Source: Haliotis asinina (taxonomy: Eukaryota > Mollusca > Gastropoda > Lepetellida > Haliotidae). From it: 64,000 nt of DNA. The notes below the pieces were generated by a model that made no database searches, was not told the origin of the DNA, and worked only from the letters and a program-made list of their open reading frames with translations. Shown here piece after piece: positions 6,001-43,655 of the stretch (within the stretch, counting starts at the first letter, position 1; every line of letters begins with the position of its first letter). The DNA lies in the NCBI RefSeq assembly GCF_037392515.1, contig NC_090283.1:25622249-25686248 (forward strand), written 5' to 3'. The position numbers and the translations under genes were made by a program.

Positions 6001-9000
6001 GTACGTTTGGAAGTGTCCCTAGTGCTGTCAAGCATGTGATACGTGAGAAGTACTTGTGGGAGTATCCCTAATGGTGTCAAGCATGTGATACGTGAGAAGT
6101 ACTTGTGGGAGTATTCCTAATGCTGTCAAGCATATGATACGTGAGAAGTACTTGTGGGAGTATTCCTAATGCTGTCAAGCATGTGATACGTGAGAAGTAC
6201 TTGTGGGAGTGTCCCTAATGCTGTCAAGCATGTGATACGTGATAAGTACTTGTGGGAGTATTCCTAATGCTGTCAAGCATGTGATACGTAAGAAGTACTT
6301 GTGGGAGTATCCCTAATGCTGTGAAGCATGTGATACGTGAGAAGTACTTGTGGGAGTATCCCTAATGCTGTCAAGCATGTGATATGTGAGAAGTGCTTGT
6401 GGGAGTATCCCTAATGCTGTCAAGCATGTGATGCGTGAGAAGTACGTTTCGGAGTATTCCTATTGCTGTGAAGCATGTGATACGTGAGAAGTACTTTTGG
6501 AAGTGTCCCTAATGCTGTCAAGCATGTGATACGTGAGAAGTACTTGTGGGAGTGTCCCTAATGCTGTCAAGCATGTGATACGTGAGAAGTACCTGTGGGA
6601 GTGTCCCTAATGCTGTCAAGCATGTGATACGTGAGAAGTATGTTTGGGAGTATTCCTAGTGCTGTTAAGCATGTGGTACGTGAGAAGTACTTTTGGAAGT
6701 GTCCCTAATGGTGTCAAGTATGGGATACGTGAGAAGTACTTGTGGAAGTATCCATAATGCTGTCAAGCATGTGATACGTGAGAAGTACTTGTGCTAGTAT
6801 CCCTAATGCTGTTGAGCATGTGATACGTGAGAAGTACTTTTGGGAGTATCCCTAATCCTGTGAAGCATGTGATACGTGAGAAGTACTTGTGGGAGTATCC
6901 CTAATGCTGTCAAGCATGTGATACGTGAGAAGTACTTGTAGGAGTATCCCTAATGCTGTCAAGCATGTGATACGTCAGAAGTACTTGTGGGAGTGTCCCT
7001 AATGCTGTCAAGCATATGACAGGTGAGAAGTACTTGTGGGAGTATCCCTAATGCTGTCAAGCATGTGATACGTGAGAAGTACTTGTGGGAGTAAACCTAA
7101 TGCTGTCAAACATGTGACACGTGAGAAGTACTTGTGGGAGTATCCCTAATGCTGTCAAACATGTGATACGTGAGAAGTACTTTAGGAAGTGTCCCTAATG
7201 CTGTCAAGCATGTGATACGTGAGAAGTGCTTTTGGAAGTGTCCCTAGTGCTGTCAAGCATGTGATACGTGAGAAGTGCTTTTGGAAGTGTCCCTAGTGCT
7301 GTCAAGCATGTGATACGTGAGAAGTGCTTTTGGAAGTGTCCCTGGTGCTGTCAAGCATGTGATACGTGAGAAGTACTTATGGGAGTATCCCTAATGCTGT
7401 CAAGCATGTGATACGTGAGAAGTACTTGTGGGAGTATCCCTAGTGCTGTCAAGCATGTGATACGTGAGAAGTACTTGTGGGAGTATTCCTAATGCTGTCA
7501 AGCATATGATACGTGAGAAGTACTTGTGGGAGTATTCCTAATGCTGTCAAGCATGTGATACGTGAGAAGTACTTGTGGGAGTATCCCTAATGCTGTCAAG
7601 CATGTGATACGTGAGAAGTACTTGTGGGAGTATCCCTAATGCTGTCAAACATGTGATACGTGAGAAGTACTTTAGGAAGTGTCCCTAATGCTGTCAAGCA
7701 TGTGAGACGTGAGAAGTACTTGTGGGAGTGTCCCTATTGCTGTCAAGCATGTGATACGTGAGAAGTACTTTTGGAAGTGTCCCTAGTGCTGTCAAGCATG
7801 TGATACGTGAGAAGTACTTGTGGGAGTATCCCTAATGGTGTCAAGCATGTGATACGTGAGAAGTACTTGTGGGAGTATTCCTAATGCTGTCAAGCATATG
7901 ATACGTGAGAAGTACTTGTGGGAGTATTCCTAATGCTGTCAAGCATGTGATACGTGAGAAGTACTTGTGGGAGTATCCCTAATGCTGTCAAGCATGTGAT
8001 ACGTGAGAAGTACTTGTGGGAGTATTCCTAATGCTGTGAAGCATGTGATACGTGAGAAGTACTTGTGGGAGTATCCCTAATGCTGTCAAGCATGTGATAC
8101 GTGAGAAGTACTTGTGGGAGTATCCCTAATGCTGTCAAGCATGTGATATGTGAGAAGTACTTGTGGGAGTATCCCTAATGCTGTCAAGCATGTGATACGT
8201 GAGAAGTACGTTTGGGAGTATTCCTATTGCTGTGAAGCATGTGATACGTGAGAAGTACTTTTGGAAGTGTCCCTAATGCTGTCAAGCATGTGATACGTGA
8301 GAAGTACTTGTGGGAGTATCCCTAATGCTGTCAAGCATGTGATACGTGAGAAGTACCTGTGGGAGTGTCCCTAATGCTGTCAAGCATGTGATACGTGAGA
8401 AGTATGTTTGGGAGTATTCCTAATGCTGTTAAGCATGTGATACGTGAGAAGTACTTGTGGGAGTGTCCCTAGTGCTGTCAAGCATGTGAGACGTGAGAAG
8501 TACTTGTGGGAGTATCCCTAATGCTGTCAAGCATGTGATACGTGAGAAGTACTTGTGCTAGTATCCCTAATGCTGTTAAGCATGTGATACGTGAGAAGTA
8601 CTTGTGGGAGTATCCCTAATCCTGTGAAGCATGTGATACGTGAGAAGTACTTGTGGGAGTATCCCTAGTGCTATGAATCATATGATACGTGAGAAATACT
8701 TGTGGGAGTATCCCTAATGCTGTCAAACATGTGATACGTGAGAAGTACTTGTAGGAGTATCCCTAAGGCTGTCAAGCATGTGATACGTGAGAAGTACTTG
8801 TGGGAGTGTCCCTAATGCTGTCAAGCATATGACAGGTGAGAAGTACTTGTGGGAGTATCCCTAATGCTGTCAAGCATGTGATACGTGAGAAGTACTTGTG
8901 GGAGTAAACCTAATGCTGTCAAACATGTGATACGTGAGATGTACTTGTGGGAGTGTCCCTAATGCTGTCAAACATGTGATTCGTGAGAAGTACTTTAGGA

Positions 9001-14341: not shown

Positions 14342-17300
14342 TGTGTGTGTGTGTGTGTGCCTCTGTGCCTGTGTGTGCATGCCACTAAACTATTGACATA
14401 TTGGGAACATATTCGCCCAGTTATTCCTTTAAATAGGGTTGGTGAGTGTGTTTAGTTTAACGCCATACTCAGCAATATATTTGGCTTTAAGACATTTAAT
14501 ATGCGGCAAAAAAGGTCAAATGTGAATCGAAGATAGGTCCCAAGAACTTGGCCTCCTTGACCACTTTGATTTGGGTACCACTTAGAAATAGTTCTGGGTC
14601 TTTATGGGGTTTGTATTTGCGACAGAAGTGTACACAATTGGTTTTTGATTTGGAAAATTTAAAGCCGTTTTCGAGATACCATTTATTTATTTTGTTTAAA
14701 CACAATTGTAGTTGCCGTTCAATAGTATACATATTTTTTTCCCACGATAAGAAATGTTAAAATCATCCGCAAATAACGATCCATCTATTAAATCGTTTAA
14801 AACTTTAGATAAACTGTTGATCTTTATGCTAAAAAGAATGACAGACAAAATACTGCCTTGTGCAACACCCTGATCCTGATTGTAATTGTCCCAGTGACAA
14901 AACGTGTTCCTTTTTCTTATTTTAATATCAAGTATTTTAGAGTATTTTTACTGTAATATTTTAACATAATTTATGTATATATTTATATTGTCCACTTTTA
15001 TTGTAACATAAGTTTCAAGCTTGGCAGGTTATTATTCATGTAACAACATCTAGTTGTCAGGTAAACAACTTGTAATTAATATAGCTCACCTAGTCAACCG
15101 CCAATTCATTTAATTAGTATCGTTTCATAGTTCTCCATGCCATTGTCATAAGTTTCAAGCTTGGCAGACGTTAGTCCGTTAATCTCTTATAACAACATCT
15201 AGTTGTCAAGTAAGCGAGCTTGTAATTAATATAGCTCACCTTGTCAACCGCCAATTCAATTAATTAGTATTATTTCATAGTTCTCCATGCCATTGTTTAA
15301 CAAAATCATGTAGTTAGGTTTAATTGTTAAAGTAAAAGTCTAAATTATAAATAACGTAATTGAGTCTGCTGACGTAGTTTCCTTAGCTGCGAAGAGCTAT
15401 AAAAGTCGGGTCTGTGTGCAACCTATGTCACACTTCCAGAACTGTGGAAACTACATCAGCGACTCCTCATCTTTAACTGTTATTTTATTATGTTTTAAGG
15501 TAAGCAACTATGTTTTATTTCGTAACTTAGTCTATTTCAATCATCAATTAAGTCTCTTTACATATTGTTAAGTCAGACAGGATAAATTTAGTATTAAGGT
15601 ATAATGTTAATGTTTATGTTCAGTCTTTGTTGTTTGTGTGAAACGTTATTTATGTATGTACAGTATGGTTCAAAATTATTGAGAATAGCTAAAGTATTTC
15701 ATATTATTAAACGAGAACAAATCAGATAAAATTGAATGTATTGTGAAAGTGTACTGACCTTTTCATGTTGGGTAGGTAACAATTTAATATTTTATCAAGT
15801 CTCCTTGAGCTTCACGGCACAGTCTAAGACGGGTAGGCATACTTCCTATCAGAGAGGTTAGTGTCTCGTGAGTTATGCTGTCCCAGTATCGGACCACTTC
15901 TCTCTTCATGTCTTCAATTTTTGTCAACCCCTTTTGATTCACACATTCCTTCATCATCCCCCAAATGTTCTCAATGGGATTTAAGTCAGGACTATATGCA
16001 GGAAATGGTAATGCAGTCACATTTTTCTCCTGAAACCACTGCTTGGCATGTTTTGCGGTGTGTTTAGGATCATTATCTTGCTGCAAAATCCAGTCATTTC
16101 CATAAAACACATGTGCACTTGGAAGGAGAAAATTATCTAATATGTTAGTGTAGCGTTGACTTGTCAGATTTCCCTCAAACACACACAGCGGGGTCGTTCC
16201 TAATAAGGACATCCCTCCCCATACATGAAACTTTGGGCTGTATTTAGGTCGTTGATACAACGGTGCTGACGCAGACTTTGTCCATATTTTCACATTATTG
16301 GGATATACCCATATTGAGCTTTCATCAGTAAAAATCACATTTTCCCAGTCAAAGTTTTCATGTGCCAAACACGACTCAACACGCCTGTCTTTATGTTCTT
16401 GTTTCATGAGAGGAGAAGGAATTCCAGTCTTTTTCTCCCATCCAAGATCAATCAAATTTCTTCTAACTGTAGATTTTGATACAACTGTTGATCCCCTTTC
16501 TATCATTTCATACCTGATGTTGGAGATGCTTGCCCTTTGCTTTTTAGACGCTAAAATTCCCAGCCGGACGCGATCTGAGAAGTCCAATTTTCTGGGTCTC
16601 CCTGCTCCTTTCTGGTGCCCAAAATCCTTTCCCTCTTTAAAATTCTTCCTAATCCTATACACAGTAGAAAGAGGAGTTCCTGTTCTCTCTGCCAATGTAT
16701 TTACATCATCAATTCCTTGATTACACAACTCAAAAATCAACCTTCTTTTATCTTCAACAGACATTGTTGACAGTGCTGAGGAAAATGACGTCTGCTACAA
16801 ATTCAGGGGAGGTAACTCTAATTGTACTATACTCAGTAGGCCAAGAAGAGTTACCTCCCTTATACCATTACTTAGTTTTAAGTATCAGTGAATCAGTATA
16901 GGTGTTAGGATAGCTCAAAGTAAGAAGAAAAATTCTCAATAATTATGAACCAGACTATATGTTTTATTTATTAAGGGACGAATCATTATAATAATTATCT
17001 TTCTTGTCTCCTTTAGTAAATATTCCAACTGACTGTAAATATTGAGATGGCTACTGTGTACAAAACTATTGTCTTTACATTGAAATGCCAATGCAAGGTG
17101 AACTAAATATCATAGATAATTGTTCATTCCTTCATATTTGCAGGTGCGTTGTGATGAATATATTCCAAGTCATAATTAAATTTGCCATTAATTGCATTAC
17201 CACAATGTGAATGTTTAAAATGAAATGTTATCTTTATATTATATTTGATACTGAATATGGGAAGTCATTGTTAATGATTTGTGTATCTGGTAAATGTATA

Positions 17301-20300
17301 TGATAATGAAGAGATTTGAGTGTGTGATATGTATTATGTTGTAATGGTCACACTTCCAGAATAAACTGTGGAAACTACATCAGCGACTCCTCATCTTTAA
17401 CTATTATTTTATTATGTTTTAAGGGTTCTTAGTGGTGAGAAAGAGCACTTTCTCATAATGATCAGACAGGGTAGAATCCGCACAGACCTGGAATTGTCTG
17501 TCATTTAAATAGTTGAGTACAAATTCAGGCAAACGATCTTGCAACCCTACGTCATGTAAATCTCTTAAAATACCACATTTCCAGGTTGTATCATATGCCT
17601 TCTCAAGATAAAAAAAAGATAGGGACAGCGTGTTGTTGATTGATTAAAGCTTTTTCAGCAAATGATTCTAAAGGCATTAAGTGTTCGACAGTACTTCTAT
17701 TTTTACGGAAAACACATTGTATATCGGTTATTGGTTTCCAAGTACCAAAACAAGTCGAATATTTATCACGCGTTCCATGATTTTGCAAACACAGCTAGTT
17801 AGTGAAATTGGTCGATAATTTGACAGATCCGTATGATCACGTCCAGGTTTAGGTATTGGTACTACTACAGCGTCAGCCATGAGGGAGGAAAGTTACCCGA
17901 TGTCCAAATATCATCAAAAATAGTCAACAGAGTTTGAAGACAGGATTCTGGTAATTGCTTCAGGAGTTGATTATGTATGTTATCAGATCCTGTAGCAGTA
18001 TCATGAGCTTGTTCAAGAGCGGTAAAGAGCTCGTGAACAGAAAATAATTCATTATAGTGTTCTCCAATATCAGAACTGAAGTTAATCATTTTCTTTTCTT
18101 GTTTTGTCTGGTATTGTTGGAATTAAGTTACATGATTAGAAGAGGAGGAGTGTGTAGGGAGGGTTTCACCAAGTTCGCAATATCTGATTTATCGGTAAGT
18201 AATTGATCTCCATGTTTAAGATGATGGACAGTAGATTTAGTACCTTTATCTTTAATTTTCTGGACCATGTTCCATACCTTGGACATGGGTGTCCGAGAAT
18301 TTATTTTGGATACATAATTTTGCCAAGATTGGCGTTTGTTCTGTTCTGTTTTGTTCTGTTCTGTATGCTGCGTTTTAGCATTTAAAGTTTTGAATTTATT
18401 TAAATATTGCACCATAGGATGGCGACGGAAATAATGTTCTGCTTTTTCCCTTGCCTTCCTAGCTTGTTTGCATTCATCGGTGAACCATGGTTTCCGGATA
18501 TGTGGAACTGCAGAGGGCTTTGGTATACACTCATCAGCTACGGAGTTCAATTCATCAGAAAACATTTAATAGCATCAGGAACGTCAATAAGAGGGCGCCA
18601 CCTGCAATGGCGACGGGCAGACGTGTTTAACAACATGGGAGTAGATATCGAACTTTGGAGAGTGCGTATTGGTTTGAATGTACAACCTAAAAGGACAACA
18701 CTTGCATGGTCTGAAACTGTCAAATGGATTTTGTGCAAGACAGTTACAAATTCTACTATGTATTGGAGTTCTATTGATTCTAAGCGGCAATGTGGAAAGC
18801 AATCCAGGGCCACGAGGGACACGCCAGAGTCGACTCACACAGTCACGCTCGGGTGTACACGTGGAGTCAGCAGAGCAGAGCGAGCATGACATCACCTCTA
18901 TCCTACACACTATACGAAATGACTTGCAGCTGCTACACAGTAAGTTCGACAAATTTGAAAAATCACTGGAAGACATTAAATATGACCAAAATGAGATGTG
19001 GAAAATAGTGGACAAACTGGAAGCAGAAAACAAACTAATGGCCTCCAAACTTGAAAAAGTGGAAGCCCAGTCTAGGAGGGATAATTTGATATTTTTTGGA
19101 ATAAAGGATAATGTAAACGAAAAATGGAAGGAAAGTGAAGAGAAAATCAGAAACTTTCTCGCTGATGAACTTAATATGAGTGACAGTGACGTGGCAAAAG
19201 TAGGAATTGAAAGGGCACACCGGTTAAATACAAAGCGCTCCCCTCGGCCTATTTTAGTGAAATTGTCTTCCTTCAAGTGCAGAGAAAACATTTTTGAGGC
19301 AGCTAGAATATGTCTTAAGGGAAATAAGACACTTCGCCTGTCCCCCGACTATGCTCAGTCTGTGAGACAGACGAGGAGAGTATGTCAGAGACTACCGTAG
19401 TAGAGGAGACGATTGTTATATCTCATATGATAAACTGATCATTAATGGCTCTATGTTTAAATATGACTGGTCCGGGAAGACTCTAGTGGAAATCGGGAGA
19501 CAACACCACATGCTACCCTCCGAGAGCCGACCCCCCACCCGACAGCCCCGAAGCGAGCCCCACCAGGAGACGGGACAGTCCCGACCCGAGCAGACGACAC
19601 AAAGTCGCAGATGCGCGTGAGAGACCCAGCCCACCGCGGGACTTCGACAGATAGGAGTGTGGCCGAGGCCATACACATTCACAAGTTATGTACAATGACG
19701 ATCTTAATATTGCTGAACAAGGCAATGAAACACATACCACCATCCCTCTATCATTCTTGTCTTGGAATATTAATGGTTTATATTCCAAAATCCATGACCT
19801 CAGTTTTCTAAATGATTATGATGCCTTTGCACTAATCGAAACGTGGGCAAAAAATGCTACTGACTTTGCTTACATTTTTCCAGATCACATATGCCACCAA
19901 TGTGTACGGGAGCGGCTGCACAAAGTGGGTAGACACAGCGGAGGTATCGCTATATACATCAGGAAGTCCGTGTCAACACTTTTCACCCGTATCCACAGTG
20001 AGTGGACAGACTGTGTCTTCTTCCTGACCGATGTACCCTCCCAGTGTAACATCTTTGGCTTTGTGTATGTACAAGATGCTGCAACCACAGCAGCTAACTC
20101 TTGCGATTGTACGGGTATTGAACTTAGTTATTAGTTATAAAAAGTTATTTTGTCTCATCAGAGAATACCCCAGAGCTGTATTTACACTTTTCGGTGATAT
20201 GAACTCTCGTATTGGCAGGGAGCAGTGCTTTATCGAATATGATAATGTTTCTTATCTTCCAATTGAGGAAGATGATTATGACTTAGATAGTTTTCGTATA

Positions 20301-31186: not shown

Positions 31187-31460
31187 GGGACCCGTGAAGG
31201 TCTACCCGGGGTAGAATAGGCCTTCAGCAACCCATGCTAGCCATAAAAGGCGACTATGCTTGTCGTAAGATGCGACTAACGGGATCGGGTGGTCAGGCTC
31301 GCTGACTTGGTTGATACATGTCATCGGTTTCCAATTGCGCAGATTGATGCTCATATTGTTGACCACTGGATTGTCTGGTCCAGACTCGATTATTTACAGA
31401 CAGCCGCCATATAACTGGAATATTGATGAGTGTGGCGTAAAACTAATGCACTCACCCACT
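31187..31460 (+). mobile_element. SINE-like repeat, family 1 (nearly full length)
   Basis: Starts ACCCGTGAAGGTCTACCCGG, includes GGCGACTATGCTTGTCGTAA and GATCGGGTGGTCAGGCTCGC, and ends CATATAACTGGAATATTGAT then GGCGTAAAACTAATGCACTC. It forms an inverted pair with 30915-31110. Confidence 0.85.
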
Positions 31461-31507
31461 GTAAATACTAGCGGACCAGAGAATCTAGTGACAGAAGCAA
31501 CTGATAC

Positions 31508-31519
31508 TGATCTATGATA
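31508..31519. repeat. Target-site duplication of LINE A (left)
   Basis: TGATCTATGATA, repeated at 43644-43655 directly after the ACTC tail. Confidence 0.92.
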
Positions 31520-31577
31520 GGCACCCGTGAACGGCCACCTCCTCGTGGTGGGTGCTGGGTCACGCCAAGAGCCGTTC
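31520..31577 (+). ncRNA. HDV-like self-cleaving ribozyme, 5' end of LINE A
   Basis: First bases of the element, right after the target duplication. A double-pseudoknot fold is possible: P1 31520-31526 with 31550-31556 (GGCACCC/GGGTGCT, 7 bp), P2 31529-31535 with 31571-31577 (GAACGGC/GCCGTTC, 7 bp), P3 31537-31539 with 31547-31549 (ACC/GGT) and a loop TCCTCGT close to the HDV loop. GG at 31557-31558 can form P1.1 with the loop cytosines. A short GTCAC-like P4 region follows, then CCAAGA as J4/2 with a candidate catalytic C (31565 or 31566). Cleavage would fall exactly before the element's first G. Four P2 pairs differ from the LINE B copy by compensatory changes. Confidence 0.8.
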
Positions 31578-31944
31578 AAACCCCCGTGTGGACCCGGGTC
31601 AGCTAGGTCCATAGCACCCCCTTTGCTGGTCGCAAGGAGTGACCGAATTGGGCAACCTGTTTGCCGTGGGTTGCGTCCCGTGTCGGTGGAGGACGGTAGT
31701 TTGGTGGTTGAGGGCAGTAGCAGCCTGAACCGTGTTCCTGCTGCTCAACACACCACTTTGGCCCTTACTTCACCTAGACGGGTGGTAGAATCGGCCCGAT
31801 TCTATCAATCGGCTGGTCACGCCAAGCCCTGTGTATGGACTTGTATGTCATTACACACATTTAATTTGCAAATGTTTTACTTTTGGACTTGGTACATTTG
31901 TTTATATCAAATGTTCACGATTTTTCACACTGATGTTTTGAACT

Positions 31945-33419
31945 TTGCCTAGAGTCTTATGCCCAGAAGGCGGTGGCTCATGGGCCAATCTGGTGGATTT
32001 GTTATTTATAACTCTTCTGCTGGAGTATATCATCCGAGTATCCTTGGTGCTGCAAGTTGGAGACCCACTTGTTATTAGCATTGTCCTTGTGATACTCCGT
32101 GGTGGGTGGGGAGCTCGGATGATGAACCTTAAAGCACTAGCCATGGCTTACGAAACCCCTGTCACCAAGAAAGAACGTCCTCTTGACACAGAACCTGATA
32201 TTAATGAACTCAGACCCTACACATCTATTGACCATTGGCCACGTTTCATAGTACTTGAGACCGTTGACAAGACACCCCTTAAGCTGAACCCTTTTGCCAT
32301 TTCAAAAGGCATACAAGGCATAGCAGGAGATGTTAAAAACGTTAGACGTTTGCGTTCAGGGTCTCTTCTCATTGAATGCAGTAAGAGACAACAAGCAACT
32401 AATTTCCTGTCAACTAAGTCTTTTGTCGGCATTCCCGTATCAGTCTCTGCCCACCGAACACTTAACACCAGCAAAGGCATAGTGAGACACCGAGACTGCC
32501 TTTTTGCTGATATGCTGGAGATTGATATTGCCTCAGAAATGAAGGAACAAGGTGTGCTATATGTAAAACGTTTCACTACCCGGAAAAACAATGAGATCCA
32601 ACAAAGAAACACATATTTGTTCTCTTTTTCTACTCCGACTGCTCCCACATCAATAAAGGCTGGTTACTGTCAACTCAAAGTGGAAACGTACATTCCAAAT
32701 CTATTGAGATGCTTCAAGTGCCAAAAGTATGGGCATGGCGTAAATACTTGCACATTGTCTGTTGTGTGCGCTCACTGTGGTGAGAAAACACACACAACAG
32801 AAGATTGTGACAGTGATTTAAAAAATGCACCAACTGCTCAGGTGACCATTCATCTTCATCGAAACAGTGTCCAATATGGAGAGAGCAAATGGAAATAAAC
32901 AGAATAAAGTATACCCAAAACATCTCTTTTTCTGAAGCAAAAAAACTGGTGAAGAGATCTGATCTTCCAGAAAGTTATGCTACAGTAGCAAACGCATCAT
33001 CTGTGCGCAGCTCTAAAATAACAAAGTCATCTACAAGCTGCCAAACTACTTTGACTTGGGTCAACAGTGACTCTCCACAACTTCTATACCCAGCTATGTC
33101 ATCACAGACTGAAGAATCACTTCCTGGAACATCAAAGTCTTCTTCTGATCATAAATCATCTTCGCAGTCACGCACTGAGTCTCAATCTACAACTGATAGA
33201 CAACAAACTGCTAAAGGTAAATCTAAGCCTAAGCCTGATGTTTCAAAACAACAAAGTGGCAGAGCTCCCAAGGGGTCACAAAATAAAGTTCAATTGTTTA
33301 ATAAATACGGGTCTCTTGAAGACATAGATGTTTCTGAAAACGTCCATTCTAGGGCACATAGCTTGTCGCCCTCCAAAAGAGTGCGGGGTAAATCCCCAAT
33401 AAATACCCCTAAAAGATAG
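31945..33419 (+). pseudogene. LINE A ORF1 (gag-like, CCHC zinc knuckles), one frameshift
   Basis: First part 31945-32830: an N-terminal region without known domain, then PFAISKGIQGIAGDVKNVRR and VKRFTTRKNNEI as in LINE B, and the knuckle CFKCQKYGHGVNTC plus CAHCGEKTHTTEDC. In the A-run at 32818-32826 the frame slips. The third knuckle (CTNCSGDHSSSSKQC) and the rest are read in another frame to 33419 (Ser/Thr-rich tail). The product would bind LINE RNA. The methionine of choice may lie further in, near MMNLKALAMAYET (about 32119). Confidence 0.85.
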
Positions 33420-33424
33420 TTTAT

Positions 33425-34860
33425 TCCAATAATATTGTACAGTGGAACTGCAGAGGATTGAGGACTAATTTACATGAATTACAGCTATTAGTCCAAGATT
33501 TCACACCTTCAGCGATATGTCTCCAAGAGACATATTTAAAACAAACAGATACATTTGACCTTCGTCATTTTAATGCATATCATTCTTTTTCACCTCCGGG
33601 TGATAGAGCTACTGGCGGGTCATCCGTTTTAGTCAGACAAAACGTTATTCAAAGCCCTGTTTCACTTAATACTAATATGCAGGCTGTTGCAGTGAGAATT
33701 ACCTTACACGTAGCGTTTACGCTATGCTCTCTTTATATTTCGCCGTCTTCGACGTTCACTAAAACTCATCTTCAAGCTCTATATGACCGAAGCCCTGTAT
33801 TATAATGGGAGATTTAAATGGGCACAACCCACTCTGGGGTAGTGTAAATACAAACCCTAGAGGTAAATTGTTGGAGGACTTTTGTTCTGACAATGACTTA
33901 TGTATTTATAATGATGGTTCCAACACATATTTACACCCTGGGACAGGGACGTATTCTGCTCTCGACTTGTCATTGACAAATTCCGAACTATTAAATGAAT
34001 TCGAATGGTCAGTCCACGATGACCTGTGTGGAAGTGACCATTTTCCTACTATATTAAAAGCTGTAACTCCATCTGATGTTCCTCCATCATCAAGGCGGAA
34101 TTTTAAAAAGGCTAACTGGGCTTTATATGAAACACTGTGTGCTGAAAAACTTAAACCCGAACGTTTTATTGACGTTCCTGATGCTATCAAATCTTTTTCT
34201 GAGGAACTGAATTCCATAGCTGATGAGTGTATACCAAATTCCTCTGCAGTTCCACACATAAGAAAACCATGGTTCAACGATGAGTGCAAACAAGCTAGGA
34301 AGGCATGGAAAAAACAGAACATTATTTCCGTCGCCATCCTATGGTGCATAATTTCAATAAATTTAAGATTTTAAATGCTAAATGCTAAAGCACGGCGTAC
34401 TTTTAAACAGAACAAACGCCAATCTTGGCAAAATTATGTATCCAAAATAAATTCTCGGACACCCATGTCCAAGGTATGGAACATGATCCAGAAAATCAAA
34501 GGTAAAGGTACGAAATCTACTGTCCATCATCTTAAACATGGAGATCAATTGCTTACTGATAAATCAGATATTGCTAATAAACTGGGTGAAACCCTTGCTA
34601 AACACTCTTCCTCTTCAAATTATGTACCTAAATTTCAGCAATATCAAAAACAACAAGAAAAGAAAGCTATTAATTTCAATTCTGATAATGGGGAAGATTA
34701 TAATGAAACGTTTTCTATTCATGAACTCCATACTGCTCTTGATCAAGCTCATGACACTGCTACAGGAGCTGATAACATACATTATCAACTCCTGAAGCAC
34801 TTACCAGAATCCTGCCTAGAAACGCTTCTCAATATTTTTGATGATATTTGGACATCGGGT
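33425..34860 (+). pseudogene. LINE A ORF2, 5' part (APE endonuclease and linker), broken
   Basis: QWNCRGLRTNLHELQLLVQD opens the endonuclease domain; SAICLQETYL, FSPPGDRATGGSS, MGDLNGHNPLWG and GSDHFPTIL follow. A deletion near 33797 shifts the frame (before MGDLNGHN). A second shift in an A-run near 34312 and a duplicated AAATGCT near 34371 alter it again. The initiator ATG seen in LINE B is ATA here. LINE B interrupts the frame after DDIWTSG. Confidence 0.88.
34848..34860. repeat. Target-site duplication of LINE B (left)
   Basis: TTGGACATCGGGT, repeated at 40992-41004. It lies inside LINE A ORF2 (codons for WTSG). Confidence 0.95.
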
Positions 34861-34918
34861 GGCACCCGTGGCGAGCCACCTCCTCGTGGTGGGTGCTGGG
34901 TAACGCCAAGAGCTCGCC
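34861..34918 (+). ncRNA. HDV-like self-cleaving ribozyme, 5' end of LINE B
   Basis: Starts at the very first base after the target duplication. P1: 34861-34867 with 34891-34897 (GGCACCC/GGGTGCT). P2: 34870-34876 with 34912-34918 (GGCGAGC/GCTCGCC). P3: 34878-34880 with 34888-34890 (ACC/GGT) around loop TCCTCGT. Then GGG (P1.1), a minimal P4 (GTAACGC) and CCAAGA with a candidate catalytic C at 34906-34907. Helix order, the 2-nt J1/2 and the L3 sequence follow the HDV pattern. Families such as R2 use such ribozymes to free the 5' end of the LINE RNA from the host transcript. Confidence 0.82.
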
Positions 34919-35419
34919 AACACCCCCGTGTGGATCCGGGGGCATATTTGGTCCACCAACCTGTTGGCCGTGGGTTGCGGCCCTGTGTCGGTGGAGGACG
35001 GGAGTCTGGGGGTTGAGGGCACTGGGAGCCTGTAACCGCGTTCCCTTTGCTCAACACACCCCTTCGACCCTTACTTCACCTAGACGGGTGGTAGAACTGG
35101 CCCGGTTCTATCAATCGGCTGGTCACGCCAAGCACTGTGCATGGTAGATATATATTATTTGCACATGTCCTTATTTTTTGGGCCTTGGATATTTTGATCT
35201 TGTAAGATACATTTATTGATTACTATAAATTGCCTAGAGTCCTATGCCAGAAAGCGGTGGCTCATGGGCCAATCTGGCAATATTGACCTCCAAATTCAAT
35301 ATGTGTCCAATTACGTGTCACGGGCAGAACCACCCCGGCATTTAATTTGGTATGCAAGTATTGCTATTTGCGTCATAATTGCTGGAGTATAACATCCCTG
35401 TATCCCTGGTGTTGGCATC

Positions 35420-36748
35420 TTGGAGATCCGGTGCTACTTGACACCGTCCTTGTTGACACTCCATGGTGGGTGGGGAGCAGGGGTGCTGAATACTCTTCCT
35501 TTCATGATGTCTTCCCAACAAGCTGGTTCATCTCGCTGTGAAAAAAAGAGGCGTCTGGTTGAAACAGATTGTACACCTGAAACCATTCCTGTAAATGTCG
35601 ATTCTTGGGCTCGATTTTTAGTGACTGAGTCTAAGGACTTTCTACCGATCAAACTCAATCCCTTCGCAATTTCAAAAGCTATCTCTGGAATTTGTGGTGA
35701 AGTAAAGAACGTTACCCGTCTTCGTAGTGGCTCGATTTTGGTTGAGTGTGCACGGAGACAGCAATCTCTCAATCTGCTGTCTGTCAAGAACTTTGCCAAT
35801 ATCGAGGTTGCTGTGTCTGTGCACAGGACATTGAATTCTTGCCGTGGCATCATACGGGACAAAGCTCGTTGTCTCTGTGATATGTCAGAGGAGGATATAG
35901 CTCTTGAACTTGAGGACCAAGGAGTTACAGCAGTGAAACGTTTCACTTTCAAGAAAGATGGTAATATCACTCCAACTAATACTTACCTCTTAACCTTTTC
36001 GCGATCTTCTCTTCCACAGTCAATAAAAGCAGGGTATGTTAACATCGGGGTGGATGTGTATGTCCCCAATCCACTACGGTGTTATAAGTGTCAGCATTTC
36101 GGTCATGGGTCTAACTCATGTCGAAACCCTGTGGTGTGTCATCGCTGTGGTGACCATCATGAGGGTGCAGACTGTGAGCATGACATAAAATGCGCAAACT
36201 GTGAAGGCCCACATGCAGCTTCATCCAGGTCCTGTCCTGTTTATATACGGGAATCTAAAATAATGAAAATCAAATGCGAAAAGAACATTTCATACCTTGA
36301 TGCCAAGAAACTGTTTACAAGTCAAACTTCAACTGCGTTGAACATATCTTATTCTGCGGCAGTCACCCGCACTGTAGCTACATCATCGACTGCTTGTCAG
36401 ACTGACTTGACCTGGGTTCAGTCAGAAAGACCTGTTAATTCAGGAAAAACACTTACTTCAGCAGTCACTCAGTCTACTACCGGGTCTCAGACTGAAATTC
36501 AGCCTTCGACATCAAGGACGTCTGTTTCACAGCCAGCTCATTCAAAAACAGGTACTGACCAAACAGGAAAGAAGAAAGGAAAAAGGTTAAATAGAAACTA
36601 TCCACCTATTGTCCCATCACCTCAAGAGGTCCCGCTACAAAACCCGTTTGAACCTCTGGATATGGAGGTTACTCCTTCCTCACAAGGCAGTCGGAGGAAC
36701 AGCTCCTCCTCAAATACCCGTGAACGATCACCAATTGAGCCACCATGA
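35420..36748 (+). CDS. LINE B ORF1 (gag-like protein with three CCHC knuckles), intact, up to 442 aa
   Basis: Counting from 35420: residues about 60-215 form a conserved block shared with LINE A (KLNPFAISKAISGICGEVKN, HRTLNSCRGII, VKRFTF). Three zinc knuckles follow: C221-C224-H229-C234, C240-C243-H247-C252 and C258-C261-H265-C272. The rest is Ser/Thr/Gln-rich and low complexity. The likelier start is the double ATG at 35504/35507 (MMSSQQAGS), giving about 414 aa, since LINE A diverges upstream. It is expected to coat the LINE RNA. The stop overlaps the ORF2 start (ATGA at 36745-36748). Confidence 0.9.
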   Translation: MEIRCYLTPSLLTLHGGWGAGVLNTLPFMMSSQQAGSSRCEKKRRLVETDCTPETIPVNVDSWARFLVTESKDFLPIKLNPFAISKAISGICGEVKNVTRLRSGSILVECARRQQSLNLLSVKNFANIEVAVSVHRTLNSCRGIIRDKARCLCDMSEEDIALELEDQGVTAVKRFTFKKDGNITPTNTYLLTFSRSSLPQSIKAGYVNIGVDVYVPNPLRCYKCQHFGHGSNSCRNPVVCHRCGDHHEGADCEHDIKCANCEGPHAASSRSCPVYIRESKIMKIKCEKNISYLDAKKLFTSQTSTALNISYSAAVTRTVATSSTACQTDLTWVQSERPVNSGKTLTSAVTQSTTGSQTEIQPSTSRTSVSQPAHSKTGTDQTGKKKGKRLNRNYPPIVPSPQEVPLQNPFEPLDMEVTPSSQGSRRNSSSSNTRERSPIEPP

Positions 36749-39700
36749 CTCAGTTGGATAATATAATTCAGTGGAATTGCAGAGGGCTTAAAAATAACTT
36801 CAGTGAAATACAATTACTCATTCAAGACCTTCAACCGTCAGCATTATGTCTTCAAGAAACTTATCTTAAAAATACTGATAATTTTAACTTAAGGCGATAC
36901 ACTGATTATCATTCTTTCTCTCCCCCAGGAGATAAGGCTACTGGAGGCTCTTCTATTTTAGTCCATCAGAGCGTCACTCATAGCCCTCTTACTCTAAAAA
37001 CGGATCTTCAAGCTGTTGCTGTTCGTCTGACTCTGCACTTTGTGCTGACATTGTGCAGTTTGTATATACCTCCCTCTTCCAGTATTCAACAATCAGATCT
37101 TCAAAAACTCTTTGATCAACTTCCGAAGCCACGTCTTATCATGGGTGACCTTAACGGGCACAACCCACTTTGGGGAGGTGCCCATACTAACACCAAAGGT
37201 AAACACCTGGAGGAATTCATTTCCAATAACAATTTATGTATTTTCAATGATGATTCAGCCACTTATTTACATAAGCTACGGGAACATATTCTTCCCTGGA
37301 TCTATCACTTGCTGACCCCATTTTATATAATGAATTTGAATGGACGGTCCATGATGACCTATGTGGGAGTGATCATTTCCCCACCATTCTGAAAACACTC
37401 AACCCTGGTGATGATCCACCGATATTTAGACGGAACTTTGCCAAGGCTGACTGGTCGTTATATAAAATATTGTGTAATGATAACTTAAAACCTGATGTTT
37501 TTGTGAACAGCGAAGATCCAATACAGTTGTTTTCCGATTTATTGAATGACATTGCTGATCAAACTATACCAAAGTCTTCTGCAGTTCCACATATCCGTAA
37601 GCCATGGTTCAACACTGAATGTAAACAGGCCAGGAAGTGTAGGAAGAAGGCTGAAAAGTATTTTCGCCGACACCCTACTGTACATAATCTTGACAAAGTT
37701 AAAATTTTAAATGCCAAGGCTAGACGTTCTTTTAAACAAAATAAGTGTCAGACTTGGCGAAATTATGTATCGAAAATCAATTCACGCACGCCTATGTCAA
37801 AAGTGTGGAACATGATTCAAAGAATAAAGGGCAAAGGTTCTAAATCTACTGTTCACCATCTGAAAGATGGTGATAATTTATTAACAAATAAATCTGACAT
37901 TGCCAATAAACTTGGTGAAACTCTCGCCAAGCATTCATCTTCATCAAATTATGTCCCTCAGTTTCAAAAGTTTCAGAAACATCAGGAAAGGAAAAGATTA
38001 AATTTTACCTCAGAAAACGGTGAGGATTATAATGAATTATTTTCAATACATGAATTACATACCGCCCTTGAGCAAGCTCATGATACAGCAACAGGGGCTG
38101 ACAATATCCACTATCAGCTCCTGAAGCACTTGCCTGAATCGTGTCAGGAAACACTGCTAATTATTTTTGATTCAATATGGACTTCAGGGAAGTTCCCATC
38201 TTCCTGGCGTAATGCCATTGTAGTCCCCATTCCAAAACCTGGCCGGGATCATAGTGATCCATCAAATTATAGACCAATCTCTTTAACGAGTTGTGTCCGT
38301 AAAACCATGGAACGAATGGTAAACAATAGATTAACCTGGTATCTGGAAACCAATAACCTTATAACAAATATTCAATGTGGTTTCAGGAAAAATCGTAGTA
38401 CCATTGACCATTTGGTACGTCTAGAATCCTTTGTAAAAAATGCAATAGTAAATAAACAACATGCAGTATCGATATTCTTTGATTTGGAGAAAGCATACGA
38501 TAACACTTGGAAGCATGGCATTTTAAAGGATTTACATGACTTCGGTTTAAGGGGTCGTTTGCCTCTTTTTATATCACAATTTTTAAAAGACAGGCAGTTT
38601 CAAGTCCGAGTAGGTTCTACCCTGTCTGATCATTACAATCAGGATCAGGGTGTTCCGCAAGGCAGCATTTTGTCTGTGACCTTATTTAGTATCAAGATCA
38701 ACAGTTTATCAAAGGTTTTAAACGATTCAATAGATGGATCACTTTTCGTGGATGATTTTAATATTTCCTGTCGCGGTAAGAATATGCATACTATTGAACG
38801 GCAACTGCAATTATGTTTAAACAAAATAAATAAATGGTGTCTTGAGAATGGTTTTAAATTTTCTAAGACAAAAACTAATTGCATCCATTTCTGCCGTAAG
38901 TATAAACCACATAAGGACCCGGAATTATTTTTAAATGGCACTCCTATCAGAGTCGTTAAGGAGGCCAAGTTCTTAGGTTTGATTTTCGACTCTCATTTAA
39001 CTTTTCTTCCGCATATCAAATCCCTAAAAACTAAATGTCTGAAGGCACTTGATCTATTGAAAGTTGTGTCAAACTCAAAATGGGGAGGGGATCAAGCTAC
39101 TCTCCTGCACCTATACCGTTCACTTGTCCGTTCGAAGCTTGATTATGGCTCCATCATTTATGGTGGAGCCTGTAAAAGCAATCTACAACTCCTTGATTCT
39201 ATCCACCACCAAGGTCTAAGACTTTGTCTTGGGTCGTTCCGAACTTCTCCTGTTGACAGTCTCTATGTCGAGGCCGATGAGCCATCTCTTACACAGCGCC
39301 GTATCAAATTAGCTTTACAATATATTACAAAACTATACTCTAACGAATCCAACCCTGCTTTTGGCTGTGTTTTCGATCCTCTATATGAGCATTTATACAA
39401 TATAAAGCCTTGTCTTGTTCCGCCTCTTGGGCACAGAATTAAACCATTCATTTCTGCTGCCGGCATTGAGCTGAAAAGTATAGCGCCTTCTCGTCTTCTT
39501 TCTTCTCCTCCTTGGCAATTAGTGAGGCCACAAGTTGACCTCACATTAACAAAGTTAAAAAAATCAGACACAAACGAATTACAATATAAACAAGAGTTTA
39601 TGCAATTAAAAAATAATTATAGTACATACAAATCCTTATTTACAGATGGGTCCAAGGATGGCGGCACGGTTGCTTGTGCCACTGTCATTGGATCCAGAAC

Positions 39701-40433
39701 AATATCTTCTCGATTACCTGATAACAGCTCCATTTTCACTGCAGAAGCAAACGCAATATTAACGGCTCTTCAATATATTCAAAGACATCCTAATCATGTA
39801 CAGTATATAATTTTTTCTGACTCTCTTTCTTGCCTTCAGGCTATTAAAAATTTGTCTTGTAAACATCCACTTTTAATTGACATAATTGAATTGTATAATG
39901 ATCTTGCAACTGGCTAGTGCGACATTGTCTTTTGTTGGTTACCCAGCCATGTAGGTATTTCTGGGAATGCAATGGCCGATCTTGCTGCTAAGGCTGCACT
40001 CAACAAATCTGTGACACCACTTCATATTCCATACAGTGACTATAAAGCTAGCATTAGAACTTACATTCGTGATCTGATGCAAAAGAAGTGGGACACCCAA
40101 GTGGGAATAAATAAATTACATGCCATAAAACCTTATATTGGTTACTCTCACTTGGGCTGTCAGTCCAGATTTGAAGAGGTCATTATGCGACGATGTCGCA
40201 TTGGCCATACGCGTTACACCCACAGTTATTTACTAAAAGGCGATGATCCTCCGTTTTGTATCCCTTGTGATGAGAGAACCACGGTCAAGCATATCCTGCT
40301 TGACTGTGTTGAATTCTCCATCATAAGGGATAACTATTTCAATGTCAAAACAATGAAGGATCTTTTTAGCACAGTTAGTACTCATTTAATTCTTGGATTT
40401 TTAAAAGAAATTGATTTTCTTAATGAATTGTAA
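36745..40433 (+). pseudogene. LINE B ORF2 (APE endonuclease, reverse transcriptase, RNase H), one frameshift and one stop
   Basis: Starts ATG at 36745 in a good context (CCACCATGA), overlapping the ORF1 stop. Endonuclease: IQWNCRGLKNNFSEI, LCLQETYL, MGDLNGHNPLWG. A one-base shift near 37275 (after ATYLH) moves the frame; the rest is open from before 37470 to 39917. Reverse transcriptase: PGRDHSDPSNYRPISLTS, FRKNRSTIDHL, FFDLEKAYD (motif A Asp present), QGVPQGSILS, FVDD (motif C). RNase H: FTDGSKDGG, AEANAIL, FSDSLSC. A TAG at 39915-39917 replaces the Gln codon seen in LINE A. The same frame then goes on with WLPSHVGISGN and ends 40433 after CIPCDERTTVKHILLDC. Confidence 0.93.
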
Positions 40434-40991
40434 TTGATATGTTCTGTAGATAGTTGTATTTTAATGATTGGTAGTTTAAATTAGTAACTTAGATTGTTAG
40501 TGGCTGTACCCTCAAAGGGGGTTGAAGTATTGTAAAATTATTGTCCTCCTGAGAGGGTACGTAAGTCCAATACTGTCATAGTCAATTTAAATCTACTACT
40601 AGTTTTTAATCGTAGAATATTTGTTGTTTTAAGTAATGGCTAAATTTCAGGATAATCGCCAATAGCTGAGGGGATGGTGTAAATCCAGCTAGGGTTCATG
40701 CAGGTAGCAGAAGTAATGTAAGTCCCCATGGACCTTAGTATGGTGATCTACCTTCAGTTGTTGGCGATCTATAGCCCCGGTTTTATGTTGTATTGTCTTC
40801 TTTAATTCAAATGTTTTAACTTTCAATGCTAGTTTTATGTTCTGTGATACTCTAGTGTTTTTACTGTCCTTCGCTGACAGGTTTTACTTTTTCTCTTTTC
40901 TCATCTTAACATTACTATAACTTATATTGTTCTCGTCACGATATGGCTGCAATATTGCCGATGTGACGTTAAATATTAACTCACTCACTCA
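40434..40991 (+). other. LINE B 3' UTR with fold-back and terminal hairpin
   Basis: Includes GGTACGTAAGTCC, an imperfect fold-back at 40655-40768 (outer arms ATCGCCAATAGCTGA / TCAGTTGTTGGCGAT), and a terminal hairpin CGTCAC (40934-40939) / GTGACG (40963-40968) around GGCTGCAATATTGCC. It ends TTAACTCACTCACTCA. This tail is the part found in most truncated copies in the window. Confidence 0.85.
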
Positions 40992-41004
40992 TTGGACATC
41001 GGGT

Positions 41005-43248
41005 AACTTTCCTCCGTCATGGCGTGACGCCATAGTAGTACCAATACCTAAACCTGGACGTGATCATACCGATCCATCCAATTATCGACCTATTTCACTA
41101 ACTAGCTGTGTTTGCAAGACCATGGAACGCATGATAAATAATCGACTTGTTTGGTACTTGGAAACAAATAATCTTATCACAGATATACAGTGTGGTTTCC
41201 GTAAAAACAGAAGTACTGTCGATCACTTAGTGCGTTTAGAATCATTTCTTAAAAACGCACTAATTAATAAACAACATGCTGTGTCTATCTTTTTTTATCT
41301 TGAAAAAGCATATGACACAACCTGGAAACATAGTATTTTGAGGGATTTATATGACTTTGGTTTGCGAGGTCGTTTGCCTCAATTTATTGCCAACTTTTTA
41401 AATGACAGACAATTCCAGGTCCGTGTGGGTTCTACCCTGTCTGATCATTACAATCAGGATCAGGGTGTTCCACAAGGCAGTATTTTATCTGTCACTCTTT
41501 TTAGCATCAAGATCAACAGTTTATCAAAAGTTTTAAACGATTCAATTGATGGATCGCTTTTCGTGGATGATTTTAATATTTCTTGCCGAGGTAAAAATAT
41601 GCATACTATTGAACGGCAACTGCAGTTGTGTTTAAACAAAATAAATAAATGGTGTCTTGAAAACGGCTTCAAATTTTCGAAGTCCAAAACTAATTGTATA
41701 CATTTTTGCAGAACATATAAGCCACATAAGGACCCAGAACTATCTCTAGATGGCACTCCCATCAAAGTTGTAAAGGAGGCCAAGTTTTTGGGATTAATTT
41801 TTGACTCACATTTAACGTTTCTACCACATATCAAATCCCTCAAAACTAAATACCTGAAGGCACTTGACTTGTTGAAAGTCGTTTCAAATTCTAAATGGGG
41901 AGGGGACCAAGCTACCCTCCTGCAACTTTATCGATCACTGATCCGGTCAAAACTTGATTATGGCTCCATTGTTTATGGTGGAGCCTGTAAAAGCAACCTG
42001 AAACTTTTAGATTCTGTTCACCATCAAGGTCTAAGACTTTGTCTTGGCTCCTTTCGAACTTCACCTGTTGACAGCCTGTACGTTGAGGCCGATGAGCCAT
42101 CTCTTGAGCAGCGACGTATCAAATTAGCTTTACAGTATGTAACAAAATTATATTCCAGTGAGTCAAACCCTGCGTATAACTGTGTTTTCAGTCCTCTGTG
42201 TGAGGACTTATACAATATGAAATCTTCGCTTGTACCGCCTCTTGGTTTAAGTATTAAACCATTTCGTGCTGCTGCCGGCATTGAGCTGGAAAATATAGCT
42301 CCTTCCCGTCTTCTCTCTTCTCCTCCTTGGCAGTTGGTTAGGCCCCAAGTGGACCTAACACTGACCACATTTAAAAAATCAGAAACTAATGAATTACAGT
42401 ATAAACAAGAATATAATGAATTGAAACATAAATATAGCAGTTATAAATCCTTATTTACAGATGGGTCCAAGGACGGTGGCGCAGTAGCTTGTGCCACTGT
42501 CATTGGATCCAGAACAATATCTTCTAGATTACCAGACAACAGTTCTATTTTTACCGCTGAGGCTAACGCCATATTAACAGCTCTTAAATATATTCAAAGA
42601 CGCCATAAACATAAACAATATATAATCTATTCCGACTCTCTTTCTTGCCTTCAGGCTATTAAAAATCTTTCTTGTAAACATCCACTTTTAATAGAAATTA
42701 TTGAATTATATAATGATCTTGCTACTGGCCAATGCGACATCGTCTTCTGTTGGTTACCCAGCCACGTTGGCATTTCCGGTAACGCAATACCCGATCTTGC
42801 TGCTAAGGCAGCACTTAACAAATCTGTGACACCACTTCGTATTCCTTATTCTGACTACAAAGCTAGCATCAGAGCTTACACTCGTGATCTGATGCAGAAG
42901 AAGTGGGACACCCAAGTAGGTATAAATAAACTACATGAAATAAAACCCTACATTGGTTATACATACTTGGGTTGTCAGTCCAGATTTGAAGAAGTCATTT
43001 TGCCACGATGTCGTATTGGCCATACAAGATACACTCATGCATACCTTTTAAAAGGTGAGGATCCTCCGTTTTGTATCCCTTGTGATGGGAGAGTCACGGT
43101 CAAGCATATTCTGCTTGACTGTGTTGAATTCTCCATCACAAGGGATAATTTGTTCAATGTCAAAACTATCAAGGACCTTTTTAGCACTGTTAATTGTCAT
43201 TTAATGATTGGTTTTTTAAAAGAAATTGATTTTTTGGTGGAATTTTGA
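41005..43248 (+). pseudogene. LINE A ORF2, 3' part (reverse transcriptase, RNase H, C-terminal zinc finger)
   Basis: Open for about 748 codons: PKPGRDHTDPSNYRPISL, FRKNRSTVDHL, QGVPQGSILS, FVDD, FTDGSKDGGAVACA, AEANAIL, YSDSLSC, WLPSHVGISGN, CIPCDGRVTVKHILLDC. Motif A reads FFYLEKAYD: the metal-binding Asp of LINE B (FFDLEKAYD) is Tyr here, which should kill polymerase activity. RNase H also differs at NAIPDLAAK (NAMADLAAK in LINE B). The open frame that seems to start at 40927 begins in the LINE B tail and is an accident of insertion. Confidence 0.92.
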
Positions 43249-43643
43249 AAATTATGTTGTGTAAATAGATGCATTTTAATGATTGGTAGTTTGAATTAGT
43301 AACTTGAATCGTTGGTGGCTGTACCCTCAAAGGGGGTTGAAGTATTGTAAAATTGTTGTCCTCCTGAGAGGGTACGTAAGTCCACAAACATTCACAGTAA
43401 ATTTAAGTCTACCAGGATTTTAATCGTAGCATTCATGTTCTTTTAATTTCGGCTAACTTTTCATACAATCGAGATTCCATGCTAGTTTTAATTGAAATGG
43501 TGATATTCTAGTTGTTTTACTGTCCTTCGTTGACGGGTTTTTATGATTTATATATGCTCTTTTTCATTGTTGAATGTTCTCGTCACGATATGGCTGAGAT
43601 ATTGCCGATGTGACGTTTAGTATTAACTCACTCACTCACTCAC
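41005..43643 (+). mobile_element. LINE A, 3' part (reverse transcriptase, RNase H, 3' UTR)
   Basis: Resumes LINE A directly after the LINE B target duplication. The 3' UTR lacks the fold-back module present in LINE B (the jump is near 43468). It ends with the hairpin CGTCAC (43581-43586) / GTGACG (43610-43615) and an ACTC tail, then the outer target duplication at 43644-43655. Confidence 0.93.
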
Positions 43644-43655
43644 TGATCTATGATA

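Follow-up and report, generated by a model that had tools for sequence, protein, structure and literature searches.

The first 59 nucleotides of a LINE family in Haliotis asinina very probably form a minimal HDV-like self-cleaving ribozyme, one without a P4 helix, that would cut its transcript co-transcriptionally at the first base of the element, G1. What carries this reading is seen in the sequences: the structure, its place at the exact element boundary, its retention throughout the genome and pairing that has been kept through sequence change. The original prediction placed an HDV-like ribozyme at the exact 5' end of one copy, LINE B, in the window (the whole 64,000-nucleotide stretch of contig NC_090283.1 that was analysed), and that proposal is supported by the sequence and position of the ribozyme, by covariation and by the number of copies. 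The features of LINE B and of its relative LINE A are collected in Table 1.

Table 1. Coordinates in the window of the two LINEs, their target-site duplications and the parts of the predicted ribozymes
Feature	Positions	Strand	Remarks
Minimal HDV-like ribozyme (predicted), LINE B, 59 nt	34861..34919	+	predicted cut: T34860/G34861
P1 5' strand GGCACCC	34861..34867	+	partner 34891-34897, including G1·U37 wobble
P2 5' strand TGGCGAGC	34869..34876	+	partner 34912-34919; compensatory change relative to LINE A
P3 5' strand ACC	34878..34880	+	partner 34888-34890
L3 TCCTCGT (RNA UCCUCGU, nt 21-27)	34881..34887	+	C34882 and C34883 in P1.1
P1 3' strand GGGTGCT and P1.1 GG	34891..34899	+	
J4/2 GCCAAGA, nt 45-51	34905..34911	+	predicted catalytic C34906 (C46); aligned with RF02682 J4/2
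P2 3' strand GCTCGCCA	34912..34919	+	pairs with 34869-34876
LINE B: ribozyme, 5' UTR, ORF1, ORF2 (endonuclease, RT, RNase H; several frames), (ACTC)n tail	34861..40991	+	
LINE B 5' target-site duplication TTGGACATCGGGT, 13 nt	34848..34860	+	
LINE B 3' target-site duplication copy	40992..41004	+	
LINE A, relative of LINE B	31520..43641 (end approximate)	+	interrupted by LINE B (34861-41004)
LINE A ribozyme (predicted), P2 TGAACGGC / GCCGTTCA	31520..31578	+	predicted catalytic C31565
LINE A 5' target-site duplication ACTGATCTATGATA	31506..31519	+	3' copy 43642-43655

The 5' end of LINE B can be drawn as a nested double pseudoknot with its helices in the order of HDV. Counting G34861 as 1, P1 consists of 7 bp (nt 1-7/31-37) and opens at the predicted cut site with a G1·U37 wobble; a J1/2 of one base leads into P2, which has 8 bp (nt 9-16/52-59), and P3 has 3 bp (nt 18-20/28-30), while P1.1 is made of 2 bp between C22 and C23 and G38 and G39 (G34898 and G34899). 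The stacking energies are -15.9 kcal/mol for P1, -18.6 for P2 (-16.2 in the A type), -5.0 for P3 and -3.3 for P1.1. Only GTAAC (34900-34904) separates P1.1 from J4/2, P4 is absent, and the structure is thus of the minimal drz form. The 7-bp P1, the 3-bp P3 with its loop and the GG of P1.1 are as originally predicted, and so is the fold as a whole; P2 had been given as 7 bp, and with 8 bp the 3' limit of the ribozyme lies at 34919, not 34918, which makes its extent 59 rather than 58 nucleotides. Both C34906 and C34907 had been offered as the catalytic base of J4/2. The first is the better candidate: it stands within GCNAAGA and, like C31565 in LINE A, is followed by N-A-A, as is characteristic of HDV-like ribozymes and as in the alignment with Rfam model RF02682, and we presume C46 to be the counterpart of C75 in HDV numbering. 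C34907 was rejected because its position is variable across copies (C in 55, T in 8, G in 5 and A in 1 of 69 sites).

G34861 directly follows the 13-nt duplication TTGGACATCGGGT, so that the predicted cut falls on the element boundary, as had been proposed. In LINE A, the first AC of the 3' duplication copy may be part of the ACTC tail. At the 3' ends that were read (L077-L096), (ACTC)n is followed at once by the duplication and poly(A) is absent. In I-group LINEs, ORF2 encodes an endonuclease, an RT and an RNase H, and all three are found here: ORF2 of LINE B matches PF14529/PF03372 and PF00078 in Pfam, and RNase H is above the cut-off in LINE A (1.4e-8) and below it in LINE B (21.0 against 25.8). 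To judge from these domains, the element looks like an animal I-group LINE, with Nimb and Ingi as candidate clades; a survey of mollusc LINEs gives Nimb and Ingi, beside one Unknown clade, as the sole clades of the I superfamily in its species (PMC10294476). The LINE B copy itself is probably dead, because its ORF2 is split into several frames.

Other repeats lie in the same window. Just upstream of LINE A, positions 31190-31470 hold a SINE-like sequence whose 3' end resembles the LINE 3' end (CTGxAATATTG..GTG.CG...ACTCAC) and whose GCTTGTCGTAAGATGCGACTAA block matches, at 20 of 22 bases, the 5' UTR region of L070, a LINE discussed below; it is perhaps a LINE-dependent SINE. An ORF at 18678-19400, which we read as a LINE ORF1, carries near its N-terminus LLILSGNVESNPGP, in our view resembling a 2A peptide motif, and an uninterrupted ORF of 326 amino acids on the minus strand (15784-16764) appears to us to resemble a Tc1/mariner transposase.

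A chance resemblance was considered and rejected. We searched with an HDV descriptor that demands a 7-bp P1 starting with G, a P2 of 6-8 bp, a 3-bp P3, an L3 of 7-8 nt whose sixth base is G, P1.1 and CNAA, a search that the original prediction had proposed as a check. When both strands of the window are searched, it matches at 31520 and 34861 on the plus strand only, and putting any of the other three bases at the catalytic C leaves no match in the window. The limits of this descriptor are fitted to the candidate, because it was written after the candidate had been seen; as written, it nevertheless matched nowhere in 20,000,100 bases (20.0 Mb) of first-order random sequence. Besides this zero, the four compensatory changes in P2 described below led to the rejection.

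A scan of the LINE B stretch at Rfam gathering thresholds gave no match. Below threshold, LINE B reached 26.4 bits with RF00094 (gathering score 50), 22.7 with RF02682 (44) and 14.5 with RF01787 (37), and LINE A 22.1, 25.9 and 14.4 bits with the same models (50, 44 and 37); a gathering score is a database cut-off and not a property of the fold. The lowest E-value in the sub-threshold scan of LINE B belonged to the snoRNA GlsR24 (20.8 bits against 100), a match that looks spurious. RF02682 puts J4/2 at GCNAAGA in both elements, and RF00094 puts it at the proposed GCCA in LINE A and on a GGC further downstream, not at C34906, in LINE B. A nested-only fold of the 59 nucleotides is no better than that of shuffled sequences (z of -0.29 for LINE B and 0.08 for LINE A), which is expected because such a program cannot draw pseudoknots. 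A plain hairpin was rejected on this equality with shuffles together with the descriptor and P2 pairing results.

The pairing of P2 has been kept through change. Within the 59 nucleotides, LINE A is distinguished from LINE B by eight P2 positions, which make up four compensatory pairs (G-C/A-U, C-G/A-U, G-C/C-G and A-U/G-C), and by position 42. Identity between the two elements is 86-92% over +60 to +620 and 74-78% over +621 to +3300 in LINE A numbering, values that are ungapped with many gap columns; in this alignment the aligner inserted small gaps within P2. Across the genome, the exact A/A helix occurs at 545 places (3 with the reversed control) and the exact B/B helix at 3445 (reversed control 1), of which roughly the first 50 and 60, respectively, were inspected and appear ribozyme-like. 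These 3990 places with matched strands stand against 8 ribozyme-like places with mixed strands, judged by eye among 9 found (6 A/B and 2 B/A; reversed control 1), and 6 of the 8 carry other changes within the displayed portion of the sequence. The contrast between matched and mixed counts comes partly from descent, that is, from linkage of the two strands, and the difference between the A and B types may go back to a single event that many copies have inherited.

For a statistical view, we aligned 20 rows (19 distinct) chosen by hand to include variants. In these rows 97.1% of pairing cells are paired, against 92.3% in shuffles and 32.7-47.9% with a slid partner, and three measures lie above all 500 shuffles: the covariation score, the proportion of cells that pair and the number of cells changed on both sides. 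Two other measures on the same chosen rows do not stand out: 4 pairs have changed on both sides, a value reached in 106 of 500 shuffles, and further standard pair types number 7, where the shuffles average 8.7 and 495 of 500 are as high. The covariation comes from P2 only, because P1, P3 and P1.1 are nearly invariant. No further P2 family came to light when pyrimidines were required at positions 11 and 14 and all other anchors were exact (0 matches), and a search for a changed P1 3' strand gave 5 scattered sites. Separately, an A-type variant with J4/2 AACGCTGAGAG, having G for A two bases past the predicted catalytic C, recurs among the places listed (GCTGAG, for example at C1:5420048, C1:15856508 and C1:33190515); it departs from the required CNAA, and these copies may form a subfamily whose ribozyme is altered or inactive.

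The same data bear on the idea that the 5' UTR is simply conserved, its likeness to HDV having arisen by chance and been maintained through descent. The copies that were read are indeed closely related, and P1, P3 and L3 are identical between the A and B types. Descent of this kind is nevertheless extremely improbable as the explanation, given a descriptor that finds nothing in random sequence and, in the window, matches only at two element boundaries, and given four P2 pairs that changed in a compensatory manner.

Retention of the ribozyme was followed through the genome. A core pattern allowing up to 3 mismatches is found at 7045 sites (3509 + 3536), with none for the reversed-pattern control, and 67 of 69 distinct sites in the fetched loci start with GGCACCC while their upstream sequences visibly differ. 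Loci L001-L038, which include LINE B (L002) and LINE A (L009) of the window, were chosen because they resemble the first 200 nt, and L039-L068 by the pattern, so that conservation of the core in the latter is by construction because the pattern fixes much of it. The sole set chosen independently of the ribozyme was selected by ORF1 (20 of 83 copies listed, with differing frame lengths). In this set the ribozyme stands at the start of 18 of the 20 copies, whole in 15 and running off the fetched piece in 3; one of the remaining two is apparently 5'-truncated and one is without a ribozyme. The original prediction was to be abandoned if full-length copies had 5' ends that did not keep the P1/P2 pairing, and both these 18 starts and the 3990 matched P2 helices speak for its survival.

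The position of the boundary is equally regular. In a different set of 20 copies, whose expected 3' ends were fetched, an exact duplication of 12-15 nt is readable in 13, and in all 13 it adjoins G1 with no added base, so that in independent insertions, too, the predicted cut coincides with the exact element boundary. A further copy (L022) has a duplication of 7 nt, and in 6 of the 20 it is unreadable, five being pieces without a tail and the sixth (L020) having one. As a control, 380 comparisons of mismatched 5'/3' pairs were made, and none shared more than 10 nt. At 4 of the 13 junctions one base is ambiguous, because a G follows the 3' copy.

Uniform 5' ends are also what LINEs with transcription driven from a start site have, and would be expected if an internal RNA polymerase II promoter started at G1 and had a downstream element in the first 60 nt, with the ribozyme as a by-product or a second function, comparable to the dual Pr77 of L1Tc. 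LINE B has CGTG at +25 to +28 (34885-34888), precisely where the downstream promoter element CGTG of L1Tc lies (PMC4748587, in part). This motif falls within L3/P3, however, and is largely fixed by such an HDV core anyway, and a promoter leaves the P2 complementarity across the pseudoknot, the GG of P1.1 and J4/2 unexplained. Nor is the added G that would copy a cap present at any of the 13 readable junctions, with the one-base ambiguity in 4 of them. We consider it unlikely that such a promoter sets the exact 5' end, while by analogy with L1Tc an internal promoter may coexist with it.

With self-cleavage as the preferred reading, the following sequence of events can be proposed. RNA polymerase would enter from upstream host sequence or start near the boundary, and once nt 1-59 have emerged, P1, P2, P3 and P1.1 would fold. 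The RNA would then cut itself just 5' of G1, with C46 as the general acid, and the upstream RNA would be lost, leaving a LINE RNA that retains the ribozyme and has a 5'-OH on G1. Reverse transcription would run the full length to G1 before insertion with a duplication, and because the ribozyme stays on the LINE RNA, each full-length insertion would begin at the same base and carry its own processing device. Junctions without added bases fit an uncapped template. A pseudoknot that acts without cutting, by binding a protein of the element, by signalling packaging or by allowing internal ribosome entry, has precedents, in that the Taeniopygia R2 protein has a pseudoknotted RNA as a ligand (PMC12222951, in part) and IRES-like activity of an HDV-like ribozyme has been discussed (PMC8256844, in part). 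We regard it as quite improbable here, since it leaves unexplained why the structure starts at the first base of the element and why G1·U37, P1.1 and C46 have been kept.

We compared the LINE B protein with other records. It has 3788 relatives, of which the 120 listed are 50-67% identical and include one from Patella, several from bivalve-symbiont assemblies and one from a spider. Several LINE proteins are deposited under bacterial assemblies (P0002, P0053, P0075, P0087, P0094 and P0115), several of them bivalve symbionts, and are probably host contamination. L070 is a LINE with long ORF1 and ORF2 on a 537,613-bp scaffold titled as a Solemya velum symbiont (NZ_JRAA01000003.1); it would be host DNA, misassembled or transferred. 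Its 5' UTR aligns with LINE A from +131 on, with no local alignment before +131; the descriptor finds no match on the element strand of the locus, and an Rfam scan around the 5' UTR returned only a snoRNA (E 1.4). A looser descriptor likewise found nothing on the element strand of the eight LINE-like symbiont or MAG stretches L069-L076, several of which are short contigs whose 5' end is possibly missing, L070 and L072 being the two read for a 5' end. A scan of viral contigs with the RT alignment confirmed no locus. L070 has the downstream 5' UTR and no sign of a ribozyme, which suggests that the ribozyme may be a module exchanged at the 5' end and may not be present throughout the clade.

HDV-like ribozymes at the 5' ends of LINEs are already known, including one in baggins, which is LOA-type. 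They have been reported in R2, R4, Dong, baggins, L1Tc and RTE (PMC3774820, in part) and in most elements of the L1Tc/ingi clade that were examined (PMC4035085, in part), and truncated twister ribozymes are mentioned for the 5' termini of RTE elements (PMC7761336, in part). Among the titles and opening lines of abstracts that our literature searches listed, mostly from outside subscription journals, we found no report of an HDV-like ribozyme in a Nimb or mollusc LINE, or of the compact P4-less form in such a LINE. The novelty is thus smaller than the original prediction implied, because baggins and the L1Tc/ingi clade already have such ribozymes at their 5' ends, even though this kind of LINE appears to be an addition.

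Our results add what appears to be an animal I-group LINE to the elements that apparently process their own 5' ends with an HDV-like ribozyme, and in its smallest form. We can put forward only tentatively, and at somewhat less than even confidence, the wider proposal that a P4-less HDV ribozyme, known until now chiefly from gut phages, is the regular 5' end of a dispersed, duplication-making animal I-group LINE at thousands of places, was added as an exchangeable 5' module and accompanies precise 5' junctions, unlike in Drosophila R2. The several thousand places, with two natural variants of P2, amount to a natural mutational series for base requirements. They also bear on how 5' ends are defined in LINEs without a clear promoter, and on whether LINE 5' ribozymes were inherited from a common ancestor, as with L1Tc/ingi and baggins, or captured repeatedly as modules. 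If the element is an Ingi, it would be a neighbour of L1Tc/ingi, and the two could well have inherited the ribozyme from a common source.

Among known ribozymes, the minimal drzs (drz-Mtgn-1 and the theta ribozymes) resemble LINE B in having P1, P2, P3 and P1.1 without P4 (PMC10879173, in part). Theta and minimal drz sequences are mostly phage-borne, nearly 99% being in Caudoviricetes phages in that study, which also searched human, mouse and protist genomes (PMC10879173, in part), whereas here they would occupy thousands of LINE 5' ends in one eukaryotic genome. The nearest Rfam model, RF02682 from F. prausnitzii, shares the J4/2 GCNAAGA with LINE A and LINE B but has more bases before J4/2, and the scores stay below gathering. 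The P3/L3/P3' block ACCUCCUCGUGGU is identical to the consensus of the drz-agam-1 model (RF01787), whose L3 is the same as that of LINE B, yet the match is partial (model positions 20-75 of 82, 14.5 bits against 37). In Pr77 of the L1Tc/ingi clade of trypanosomatids, an HDV-like ribozyme likewise forms the first nucleotides of a non-LTR element, is cut 5' of +1 and has CGTG at +25 to +28; L1TcRz, however, is shown as having a P4 helix, and C1 is the first base in several of its relatives (PMC4035085, in part). The ribozymes of R4, Dong, baggins and RTE are also HDV-like and cut at the element 5' end (PMC3774820, in part). The R2 ribozyme has an HDV-like core and is cut from a co-transcript at or near the 5' end of the element, as predicted here, but R2 is site-specific in 28S genes, and the LINE family described here is dispersed and makes duplications. 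Finally, most 5' junctions of Drosophila R2 are variable despite a cut at the boundary (PMC3774820, in part), and for this reason the precision of the 13 readable junctions in Haliotis asinina is a real difference between the two systems.
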